Positions 53,782 to 57,273 of a stretch of 64,000 bases of DNA are shown piece by piece. Position 1 is the stretch's first letter, and every line of letters begins with the position of its first letter. The DNA lies in assembly GCA_023143095.1 (NCBI GenBank), contig JAGLIF010000011.1, positions 1 to 64,000 on the forward strand, written 5' to 3'. The position numbers and the translations under genes were made by a program. The DNA is from Candidatus Altimarinota bacterium. Lineage in GTDB: Bacteria; Patescibacteriota; Gracilibacteria; UBA4473. Under the pieces are notes generated by a model. The model worked only from the letters and a program-made list of their open reading frames with translations, was not told the origin of the DNA and did no database searches.

Positions 53782-55878
53782 CTAGCTATTCTTTTGTTTT
53801 AAAATTTCTTCTGGGTTGGTGGTAACTATTTTATTTTCGCCATAAGAGGCGATAATCTGAATTGCAACATGTTGATTTCCTGCAAAGAATAGACCTTGTC
53901 CTACATTAGAATTCAATAAAAGATGTTTTTCTTGATCAGTAAGATTAAATACTTTTTGGAGTTTTTCCATCGCAGAAGGGGCTTGTTTCAAAAGTATTTG
54001 CATGGAAGAGTTTGTAATAATAGGTTTTCCCCAAGGAGAATCTAGGAAATCTTCCACATCTTGAGTAATGGTTGAAATTCCTAAATAGTATTTTCGAGCT
54101 CGTTTGCAGAGATTATGTAAAAATTGTCCAGAATCTTTGTGTTGTACAATATTCCAGGCTTCATCAATAACTAAAATTCTTTTTTTGAGGTCAGAACGAA
54201 TACGATTCCAAATGTAATTGAGCAAAATATGCATGGAAATCGGTCGTAATTGTTCTTCGAGATCACGAATACAGAAGGTAATCAATCCAGAATTAAGGTT
54301 GACATTTGTTTGATTAGAAAAAAGACCGGCAAAAGTACCTTCAGTATATTTTTCTAAACGAATAGAGAGACTTTTACTGCCTTCCATAGAAGATAAAATA
54401 TTTTGTAAATCTTTCATTGTAGGCATTTCAAAGTTGTTTGGTTTTTCTGTTTTATCAGTGATGCCTTTTATTTCATAGCATTGAAAAAGGGCTTTCTCGA
54501 TTAGACTAGATTCTTCTGGAGAGAGTTTTCCGAGCATCAGGTTCATAAGACCTGTTAAGGTAATGATGTTTTCTCTCAAGAGAGCAGCCGTATTGGAGCT
54601 AGCTTTATCAATGGGAAGAGGAAGATCAAAAGGATTGATTCGATGATTGGAGGAGAGGGAAATATTTATAAAGGTTCCTCCAACTGTGTTGGTTAAGGTT
54701 TCGTATTCTTTTTCTGGATCGAGAATAATGACATCAGTACCAAGCATTAGTGATCGGAGAACTTCTAGTTTTACAGCATACGATTTTCCAGCACCTGATT
54801 TTGCAAAAATAACTGAATTAGCATTTTCTAGATTAAAGCGATCAAAAATGATTAAAGAATTGTTGTGTCGATTTAAACCAAATAAAATACCTTCATTGGA
54901 AGTGAGACTTGAGGAGGTAAATGGAAATGTTGTAGAAAGCGGACCTGTATTCATATTTCTCACATGTTGAATTTCGTCGGTACATTGTGGAAGTGTCGAA
55001 TTAAAAGCTCTTTCAGTTTGAAAATCAGCGGAGCGTGTCATGACAAGTTGTCCTCCCAAGAGAGTTTCAATTTGTTTTGTAGTGCTATCTAATTTTTCTT
55101 TGGTATCAGCGTAAACGGTTAGATATAAGCCGACTTGAAAAAATCGTTCAGTTCCTCGTTGAAGATCAATACGGAGTTGTTCAGCATCTTCCAATGCAGT
55201 ATCAAGAGATGTATCATTTAAGACACCTTTTTTTTCTCTCATGTGTTTTGTTGAGAGCATTTCTGTTACTTTTTTTCTCAACACTTTCATAATTTGTGCT
55301 GATTCAGAAGGATATACGAAAATGGATAAGTCTATTGTGGCATCAAAGTTTATAATTTGGTTGAGCCAATTGCTTTCGATGAATCTTGGATAATTAAAAA
55401 CATAAAAACTTTGAACAAATTTATTGTTAAGCCTCATTCCTTTTGAGGAAATATCCATAGAAGAGGGTGCAATTAGGTCTTTGATAGAGATGATTCCGTC
55501 TTTATAAACTTTTTCGGCAGCCATAATTTTTTTACGAAGTTCTTTTGTGAGAAGTTTTTTATCTTTTTTGGGATTAAAGTTTTCAAAAAGATTTTCCAAT
55601 TCAGTTGATTCAAGAGGTGTTGAATTTTTTTCATGATTTTTTTTTCGTTCTGTTGCCTTTTTTTTATTTTTATCTACATGCGATTGCCACATTTTTTTTA
55701 GACTAAAAGAAGATTTTTTTGTTTTCTCTTTTTTTTCTGTTTGAAGAAGGGCATCTTTAGATTTCTTTGGAGAAAGGGGTGACACATTTTCTTCTTGCGA
55801 CGCAGGAGTTGCTTCTGTTTTTTTATTTTCAGAAACTATTGGTGTTGTTTTGTTTGTCTGAATTGGATCTTCTCCCAT
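53782..55878 (-). CDS. VirB4-family (type IV secretion-like) ATPase
   Basis: The 698-aa protein opens with about 110 residues of low-complexity Lys/Glu/Ser-rich sequence, then the VirB4 N-terminal domain, then the RecA-like motor. The motor has Walker A AKSGAGKSYAVK (about 358-369), VIILDPEKEYETL (about 387-399) and RILVIDEAWN (about 565-574, Walker B with Asp-Glu). VirB4 proteins power DNA or protein transfer through type IV systems. No VirB6, VirB8 or VirB10 neighbours are visible, so it is an orphan here. It could instead serve competence or pilus-like function in Patescibacteria (inference). Confidence 0.88.
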   Translation of the reverse strand: MGEDPIQTNKTTPIVSENKKTEATPASQEENVSPLSPKKSKDALLQTEKKEKTKKSSFSLKKMWQSHVDKNKKKATERKKNHEKNSTPLESTELENLFENFNPKKDKKLLTKELRKKIMAAEKVYKDGIISIKDLIAPSSMDISSKGMRLNNKFVQSFYVFNYPRFIESNWLNQIINFDATIDLSIFVYPSESAQIMKVLRKKVTEMLSTKHMREKKGVLNDTSLDTALEDAEQLRIDLQRGTERFFQVGLYLTVYADTKEKLDSTTKQIETLLGGQLVMTRSADFQTERAFNSTLPQCTDEIQHVRNMNTGPLSTTFPFTSSSLTSNEGILFGLNRHNNSLIIFDRFNLENANSVIFAKSGAGKSYAVKLEVLRSLMLGTDVIILDPEKEYETLTNTVGGTFINISLSSNHRINPFDLPLPIDKASSNTAALLRENIITLTGLMNLMLGKLSPEESSLIEKALFQCYEIKGITDKTEKPNNFEMPTMKDLQNILSSMEGSKSLSIRLEKYTEGTFAGLFSNQTNVNLNSGLITFCIRDLEEQLRPISMHILLNYIWNRIRSDLKKRILVIDEAWNIVQHKDSGQFLHNLCKRARKYYLGISTITQDVEDFLDSPWGKPIITNSSMQILLKQAPSAMEKLQKVFNLTDQEKHLLLNSNVGQGLFFAGNQHVAIQIIASYGENKIVTTNPEEILKQKNS

Positions 55879-55935
55879 TTAAAATAAATCAATATTAATC
55901 CCTTCATTATATCATGAAAGTCCATATTTTCCTAG

Positions 55936-55988
55936 AAAAAACGCAGGAATTTTTCACATAATAATTAGAGGTGTTTCCTGCGTTTTTT
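55936..55988. terminator. Bidirectional terminator upstream of virB4
   Basis: AAAAAACGCAGGAA (55936-55949) pairs with TTCCTGCGTTTTTT (55975-55988), a 14-bp stem with T runs on both strands. No known gene ends here on either strand, which suggests an unlisted short transcript. Confidence 0.7.
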
Positions 55989-56418
55989 ACACTGAAAATC
56001 TTTATAAAAAATTTCAGCGGGTTTTAAGCTATTGCGACGCATAACTTAAAGCTCACTGGCACTCCTGGTTTTCTGTTTTTTTGAGCGGAAAACCTCGCTC
56101 TTTTTTTGTTTTTTTATTTTTTGTATGTTTTTAAGTCTTTCTCTTCGAGAAAATTTATTAAAGGTGTGTCGCGCCTTTAAAATTTGGGGGAGAGGAAGGC
56201 CAGGAGAAATTTCGGTTCTCACGAATACTTAAAAGTTACCAAAATTAGGTACCAAAGCCGCAAAAACCGAAGTTTCTCCTGACGGAAAATCTTTAAGTTA
56301 TTATATTGTTTTTTCAAATAGCTTGTTAGCCATTTTATCATAAAATAATAAAAAAAGAAAATGTTTTTTAAAATTCTATGCAAGTGAATAAAAATTTAGT
56401 AATCTGTATCTTGAAAAA
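55989..56418 (+). ncRNA. Candidate structured RNA or attenuator leader before ftsX
   Basis: No ORF. In order on the plus strand: a TTTAAGCTAT/ATAACTTAAA-type hairpin (about 56013-56049); a GAGCG/CGCTC terminator (56083-56100, then seven T) whose loop GAAAACC (56088-56094) can instead pair with GGTTTTC (56067-56073); a TTCTC-TTC-GAGAA hairpin (about 56139-56151); an AAAGG/CCTTT hairpin (about 56160-56179); and a 17-bp helix of CAGGAGAAATTTCGGTT (56201-56217) with AACCGAAGTTTCTCCTG (56265-56281). It does not match SRP RNA, RNase P, tmRNA or 6S by the motifs I know. Confidence 0.45.
56083..56107 (+). terminator. Intrinsic terminator with alternative pairing
   Basis: GAGCG (56083-56087) and CGCTC (56096-56100) followed by seven T residues (56101-56107). 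The loop sequence GAAAACC can pair with GGTTTTC upstream, which would compete with the hairpin as in attenuators. Confidence 0.75.
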
Positions 56419-57273
56419 ATGAATAACAACTGGAAAGGCTTTTTTATTCGAAGTTTTCGTGAGAGCTCGGTGCAGCTCTGGCGTAATAAGTTTTTGTCAG
56501 GAGCGACGATACTGTTAGGCGCTTTGATTTTATTTTTATTGAATTTTGTTTTTTCCATTAAGTTTTTTGCTGATTATTCATTAAAAAATTTAGAATCGCG
56601 TGCAGATTTTTCAGTACCACTACAAGAAGGTTTTGATTCTTTTAAATTTGATGCGTTAAAAAATGATCTTAATAATAACTTTTCTGTTGATTTGAAATTA
56701 TTAGAAGAGGAGTCATTTGAAAATTTTTCTGTACCAGCTCGATTACATGTAAAATTTAAAAAGCTAACAGAGGTAAGAGCGGTTTTTGAAATGCTAAAAG
56801 GTATTAGATATGATGAGATAATAGGTCTTTGGGATGTTTCAGCAGAAGTGGATTTTACGAATTTAATCGAAAAATTACTTACGATTAGAAGCGGAGTGGA
56901 GGTGGCGAGTCGTTGGTTATTATTGTTATTTTTAGCTGGGGGTGTTTTATTGGTAATCAATACTTTTCGAATTGTTATTTTTTCGCGAAGAGAGGAGATA
57001 TCAATTGCACGGTTGGTGGGGGCTGATACTTGGTTTATAGCAGGTCCTTTTTTGATGGAAGGTCTTTTGATGGGAATTCTTTCAGCCCTAATTGCTATTT
57101 TTACCTTTATTTTTGTTTTGCGAAAAATTGCTATTTTTCCAGGTGGAGAAATTTTTCTTTATCTTTGGAATAATGTTTTTCCTTATGAAATTTTTGTGGC
57201 GGGAAGTATTGGTATTTTGGGAGCTTGGTTGGCTATAAAAAGATATTTATTTGCTCCATTAAGTGAACACTGA
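56419..57273 (+). CDS. ftsX: FtsX-like cell division permease
   Basis: FtsX with FtsE forms an ABC-type complex that activates cell wall hydrolases at the septum. The 284-aa protein has an N-terminal cytoplasmic stretch, one membrane span (about 27-50), an extracytoplasmic domain of about 110 residues, and three C-terminal spans (about 165-280) with REEISIARLVGADTWFIAGPFLMEG, the FtsX signature segment. The partner ftsE is not adjacent. It is followed by recO 29 bases later. The 540-base upstream gap is the structured stretch described separately. Confidence 0.9.
   Translation: MNNNWKGFFIRSFRESSVQLWRNKFLSGATILLGALILFLLNFVFSIKFFADYSLKNLESRADFSVPLQEGFDSFKFDALKNDLNNNFSVDLKLLEEESFENFSVPARLHVKFKKLTEVRAVFEMLKGIRYDEIIGLWDVSAEVDFTNLIEKLLTIRSGVEVASRWLLLLFLAGGVLLVINTFRIVIFSRREEISIARLVGADTWFIAGPFLMEGLLMGILSALIAIFTFIFVLRKIAIFPGGEIFLYLWNNVFPYEIFVAGSIGILGAWLAIKRYLFAPLSEH

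Follow-up and report, generated by a model that had tools for sequence, protein, structure and literature searches.

The RNAs OLE, ROOL, GOLLD, and raiA are long intergenic RNAs with pseudoknots and a restricted distribution, whose functions were found late or are still pending. Here, we describe a locus that is alike in these respects, in a 64,000-nucleotide stretch of a Candidatus Altimarinota contig (the window). Unlike those RNAs, the putative RNA encoded here has no Rfam match, is smaller (about 270–580 nt), is built of other helices, and has virB4 as its sole gene link. Two further RNAs invite comparison. tmRNA (RF00023) is similar in length (about 360–400 nt) and in its A-rich pseudoknots, but the new RNA has neither tRNA-like ends nor a tag frame, and the true tmRNA gene lies elsewhere in the genome (G000:C11:169258). 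The PreQ1-I riboswitch (RF00522) likewise has an H-type pseudoknot in which the third loop is A-rich, and its model gives a weak match to positions 56067–56104 of the minus strand. However, the score of 14 bits is far under the 39-bit cut-off (E = 3.3), and we rejected this identity. The second pseudoknot stem of the new RNA, moreover, has 5–7 bp of variable sequence, and virB4 has a promoter of its own.

The interval 55878–56419 has no gene of note and lies between a virB4-like gene on the minus strand and ftsX on the plus strand. An earlier note, made from the sequence of the window, had described here a bidirectional terminator, a second terminator whose loop can pair with an upstream segment, and a 17-bp helix, and had read them as a structured RNA or a regulated leader of ftsX-recO. 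All of the elements that it described were located. A perfect 14-bp inverted repeat with A6 and T6 flanks occupies 55936–55949 and 55975–55988; a 17-bp repeat of 94% identity with one G-T pair occupies 56201–56217 and 56265–56281; and GGTTTTC (56067–56073) can pair with GAAAACC (56088–56094), next to GAGCG..CGCTC-T7 at 56083–56107. The stretch contains five terminator-like sites, against 0.7 expected. Its folding z-score is −5.7 for the plus strand and −7.0 for the minus strand, and none of 100 shuffled sequences folded equally well. Together with covariation among homologs, these scores bear out the suggestion of a structured RNA. No ftsE gene is found directly upstream of ftsX, which therefore stands apart from its usual operon partner here. 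The ftsX frame ends at TGA, so the genome appears to use TGA as a stop.

The comparisons below place the RNA on the minus strand. See Table 1 for the coordinates of all features. From 5′ to 3′, the predicted gene consists of a probable promoter, P1, P2 with its cap, an A-rich linker, a pseudoknot, additional hairpins in a sub-group, and a terminator hairpin. The promoter was assigned by homology and consensus only. Most homologs have TTGATT-17-TGGTAYAAT at this position and then GUUCUUU where the transcript presumably begins, which suggests that a conserved sigma-70-type promoter transcribes the RNA. If the alternative promoter ending at 56300 were used, the RNA would be ~358 nt long.

Table 1. 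Predicted features of the RNA gene and its neighbors in the window
Feature	Position	Strand	Remarks
virB4/TraC-like ATPase gene	53782..55878	−	Pfam TraG P-loop and CagE_TrbE_VirB; usual downstream neighbor of the RNA
−10 element of separate virB4 promoter	55907..55912	−	TATAAT (TGATATAAT); between RNA terminator and virB4 start
Whole RNA gene	56325 -> 55936 (about)	−	~390 nt; homologs in 16/20 family genomes, promoter homology, terminator
3′-terminal terminator hairpin with U6	55936..55988	−	Conserved apical motif CACCUCU...AUGUGAAAAA
H0, small hairpin	55992..56017	−	Arms CUGAAA/UUUCAG; from window/G005 comparison
H1 hairpin	56023..56050	−	UUUAAGUUA 56050-56042 / UAGCUUAAA 56031-56023; loop with GUCGC
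P3, putative long-range helix	56052..56206	−	CUCCUGGC 56206-56199 / GCCAG(U)GAG 56060-56052; excludes P1 base
H-type pseudoknot	56067..56100	−	"Attenuator" of the earlier note, reread on the minus strand
Pseudoknot S1	56100-56096 / 56087-56083	−	GAGCG / CGCUC
Pseudoknot S2	56094-56088 / 56073-56067	−	GGUUUUC / GAAAACC
Pseudoknot loops	L1 56095; L3 56082-56074	−	L1 A (1 nt); L2 0; L3 AAAAAAACA (9 nt, A-rich)
A-rich unpaired linker	56101..56132	−	AAACAAAAACAAA-like; composition conserved in homologs
P2	56135..56200	−	CUU.C.CUCU / AGAG.A.AAG; 56200-56191 with 56144-56135; two conserved C-A mismatches
P2 cap, variable hairpin	56185-56174 / 56164-56153	−	Sequence differs among homologs
P1, long 5′ hairpin, 17 pairs	56201..56281	−	Arms 56281-56265 and 56217-56201; from repeat and homologs
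Second candidate promoter	56329-56300	−	CTAACA-18-TATAAT
Probable promoter	56332..56360	−	Extended −10 TGA-TAAAAT 56340-56332; weak −35 TTTCTT 56360-56355; 17-nt spacer
ftsX	56419-57273	+	On the far side of the gene-free interval

We located homologs by synteny and by models, finding the RNA in 16 of the 20 genomes of the family (all but G004, G014, G016, and G019). In 13 genomes (G000, G002, G006–G013, G015, G017, and G018) virB4 follows it directly and has the same orientation. The copy in G003, recognized through its terminator motif, is ~1.1 kb upstream of virB4, and those of G005 and G001 stand alone elsewhere. virB4 itself is present in all 20 genomes, including these last two, in which it has no RNA beside it. 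The virB4 match of G008 (L134) contains one in-frame TAA, which reflects either a genuine break in the gene or a mistake in the assembly. The virB4 genes of three other genomes of the class (G030, G120, and G032; L177, L179, and L180) have 18–38 in-frame TGA codons, as expected where TGA encodes an amino acid.

The searches suggest a narrow distribution. Searching 60 related genomes at the DNA level yielded a single clear match, on contig C152 of G005, where the element precedes rpiB instead of ftsX. A model built from these two sequences (R1) found one additional copy only, in G008, immediately upstream of virB4 and on its strand, as is the case in the window; a match in G126 and other weak ones look like chance. 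When 353 genomes of the class were scanned with a second model (R2), built from the P2 block, a further full copy came to light in G001, beside an oppositely oriented tRNA-Gly gene and a long way from virB4. The promoter, the terminator motif, and the pseudoknot (AGAGUU/AACUCU and GCUAUC/GAUAGC) are all present there, and all of them lie outside the R2 model. R2 matches in other families were weak (20–25 bits), and among 14 R2 loci scanned, G001 alone had the terminator motif. No such RNA was seen upstream of virB4 in 28 genomes of other families, nor anything of the kind upstream of ftsX in 17 relatives. An exact conserved 22-mer and a two-part motif, sought in GTDB and viral contigs, returned only the window, G005, and chance matches in coding sequence.

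The segments that the earlier note took for a second terminator with a pairing loop are present as described, and on the minus strand they instead form an H-type pseudoknot. The T7 tract of that reading is the A7 loop of the pseudoknot. Only the minus strand can adopt this geometry; the plus strand would need a loop of 1 nt to bridge 7 bp, so that only one helix at a time could form there. Searching whole transcripts for the best pseudoknot without guidance led to this site in 13 of the initial 14 homologs. The window scored 29.6, whereas 20 shuffled versions averaged 20.1 and reached 24.5 at most. All 75 tested S2 pairs across 15 genomes are standard, with the strand occurring in 13 different sequences. 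When S2 strands were permuted among genomes, ignoring relatedness, the mean was 39.5 and the maximum 61 in 20,000 trials. S1 pairs at 100% with its own strand and at 75% with swapped strands; the corresponding values for the terminator stem are 100% and 41%. For these helices, as for those of the unguided search, the contrast with swapped strands is the meaningful figure, because they were picked for being paired. The pseudoknot is absent from the G011 copy.

The 17-bp helix of the earlier note is P1. The helix stood up to comparison; its single G-U pair becomes a C-A mismatch on the minus strand. The majority of 13 homologs keep P1 as a helix; an internal loop sits close to the base, and the base is like AGGGAG/CUCCCU across the family. 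P2 has the family form CUG.C.CUU.C.CUCUC / GAGAG.A.AAG.A.CAG, in which the two C-A mismatches are nearly invariant. It shows eight two-sided changes, a covariation above that of all 500 shuffles, and the block is absent from the G006 and G003 copies. As a caveat on strand, the P1 mismatch and one pair of the variable hairpin would both be G-U if read on the plus strand. In the terminator hairpin, which is the bidirectional terminator of the earlier note and the predicted end of the RNA, the stem sequence varies freely among homologs and the tip keeps CACCUCU...AUGUGAAAAA. Overall, the comparison shows that the predicted terminator hairpin with its apical motif, the A-loop pseudoknot, P1, and P2 are conserved.

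A sub-group comprising the window, G005, G011, G012, G017, and G018 carries two extra hairpins after a GGCAGGUGAG-like motif, and H1 is present only in the sub-group with GGCAGGUGAG/AAACCC. Stem differences between the window and G005 are largely paired changes, and three pairs of H1 are altered on both sides. In both the window and G005, the H1 loop (GUCGC, 56033–56039) is complementary to the loop of the P2 cap (GCGAC, 56164–56173), and the two may make a kissing contact; the other homologs examined lack this match. The minimum-energy fold of the window also contains a helix between the 5′ leader and H1, with no equivalent seen in G005.

An alternative pairing, as the earlier note proposed, does exist, but it involves the base of P1 and not GGTTTTC/GAAAACC. 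CUCCYKGCC, the strand that immediately precedes P2, makes up the P1 base but can also find a partner, for P3, downstream of the pseudoknot. All 13 homologs tested are able to form P3, with a mean duplex energy of −13.6 kcal/mol for own strands vs −10.2 kcal/mol for swapped ones. The pairs differ between genomes: CUCCCUGCC with GGCAGG(U)GAG in G017 and CUCCCUGUC with GACAGG(U)GAG in G012, a compensating change; GCUCCC with GGGAGC in G002; and CUCUCUCGG with UUCGAGAG in G007. P3 is the weakest of the helices and its statistics are modest, as more than 10 of 100 shuffles pair equally well in 4 of the 13 genomes. For the window RNA, a model without pseudoknots gives −105.4 kcal/mol for the P1-base fold and −105.5 kcal/mol for the P3 fold. 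Since the two are nearly equal in computed energy, a two-state switch, with CUCCYKGCC pairing in either the P1 base or P3, is likely.

What kind of gene this is can be judged from these observations. The predicted locus has its own probable promoter, its own terminator, a conserved and covarying structure, and no long conserved ORF, as an independent structured non-coding RNA gene would. The best explanation, which we hold with reasonable confidence, is a single, independently transcribed, minus-strand gene of this type, representing a new RNA family of one family of the Candidate Phyla Radiation (CPR), as far as tested. By its placement, the putative RNA is associated with virB4, yet independent of it. 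A cis-acting virB4 leader that senses something and sets read-through at its terminator, in the manner of a riboswitch or attenuator, would account for 13 of the 16 copies lying directly ahead of virB4 in the same orientation, for the terminal hairpin, and for the alternative pairing; the frequency of the link also leaves room for an effect in cis. We nevertheless consider this reading unlikely. In most genomes, virB4 has a promoter of its own, of the type TTGAAA-17-TGGTATAAT, below the RNA terminator and ahead of its start codon, and the RNA is therefore not a simple virB4 leader. Furthermore, the lone copies of G001 and G005 have no same-strand gene close downstream, and we found no antiterminator that would melt the terminator stem, from which the switch strand is far away. 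A plus-strand reading, with the RNA as a regulated ftsX-recO leader, fares much worse, despite the terminator-like hairpin with T7 at 56107, the start of ftsX at 56419, and a G-U pair in P1 that suits this strand. The RNA is on the opposite strand, the pseudoknot is infeasible on the plus strand, and no relative carries the RNA upstream of ftsX, as the homologs travel with virB4 or alone. We therefore give up the ftsX attenuator or leader, which has hardly any probability left.

If the RNA were a housekeeping RNA (tmRNA, RNase P, SRP, or 6S) that had diverged, its size, its promoter and terminator, and its pseudoknot would fit, but this reading is very improbable. Against 4227 Rfam models, the RNA and its homologs stayed below every gathering cut-off, with SRP and 6S among the families that do not score; only nearby tRNAs and chance matches appeared. 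This agrees with the earlier note, which had seen no motifs of SRP RNA, RNase P, tmRNA, or 6S and had called for the Rfam search. Models of 6S and SRP RNA gave no match in 416 bases even with lax filters, and ARAGORN found no tmRNA in the stretch, which shows neither the tRNA-like domain nor the tag frame. RNase P RNA (RF00010), like tmRNA, is encoded elsewhere (G000:C8:86959–87342, L034; 96 bits, E = 2e-30); with an Rfam cut-off at 100, that gene falls just short and would escape automatic annotation. In addition, the searches did not find the new RNA elsewhere in the class. A short mRNA for a small protein is suggested by a 58-aa frame in the window that resembles a 60-aa frame in G005. However, the other homologs do not preserve this frame, and no long ORF inside the RNA is conserved; where the two frames are most alike, the DNA is nearly identical at every codon position, and the helices covary. 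We regard a coding role as extremely improbable.

For the independent non-coding RNA, we propose the following mechanism. A sigma-70-type promoter would transcribe the RNA, and its CUCCYKGCC strand would pair either upstream, in the P1 base, or downstream, in P3, which would enclose P2, the linker, and the pseudoknot. Co-transcriptional folding or a bound partner would decide between the two states. The RNA probably acts in trans, as a protein-bound RNA (RNP) or as a translation-related regulatory RNA. The tip motif ACACCUCU (55950–55974 in the window, and in the 3′-terminal hairpin of the homologs) resembles the 3′ end of 16S rRNA (AUCACCUCCU) and could mimic the anti-Shine-Dalgarno sequence. 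A bolder proposal is a new class of trans-acting RNA switches in one CPR lineage, whose pseudoknot and partner-trading pyrimidine-rich strand control translation or the VirB4 type IV secretion or pilus-like machine; we put this forward as a rather doubtful possibility.

Little work seems to have been done on non-coding RNA in the Candidate Phyla Radiation; within the set of papers searched, nothing relevant turned up on this lineage in combination with structured RNAs. The RNA is kept in 16 of 20 small genomes (about 1 Mb) with its pairing intact, although in most of them its sequence has become nearly unrecognizable, and it is therefore probably selected for function. At ~390 nt, it offers a testable predicted fold, a putative switch strand, and a genetic neighbor.
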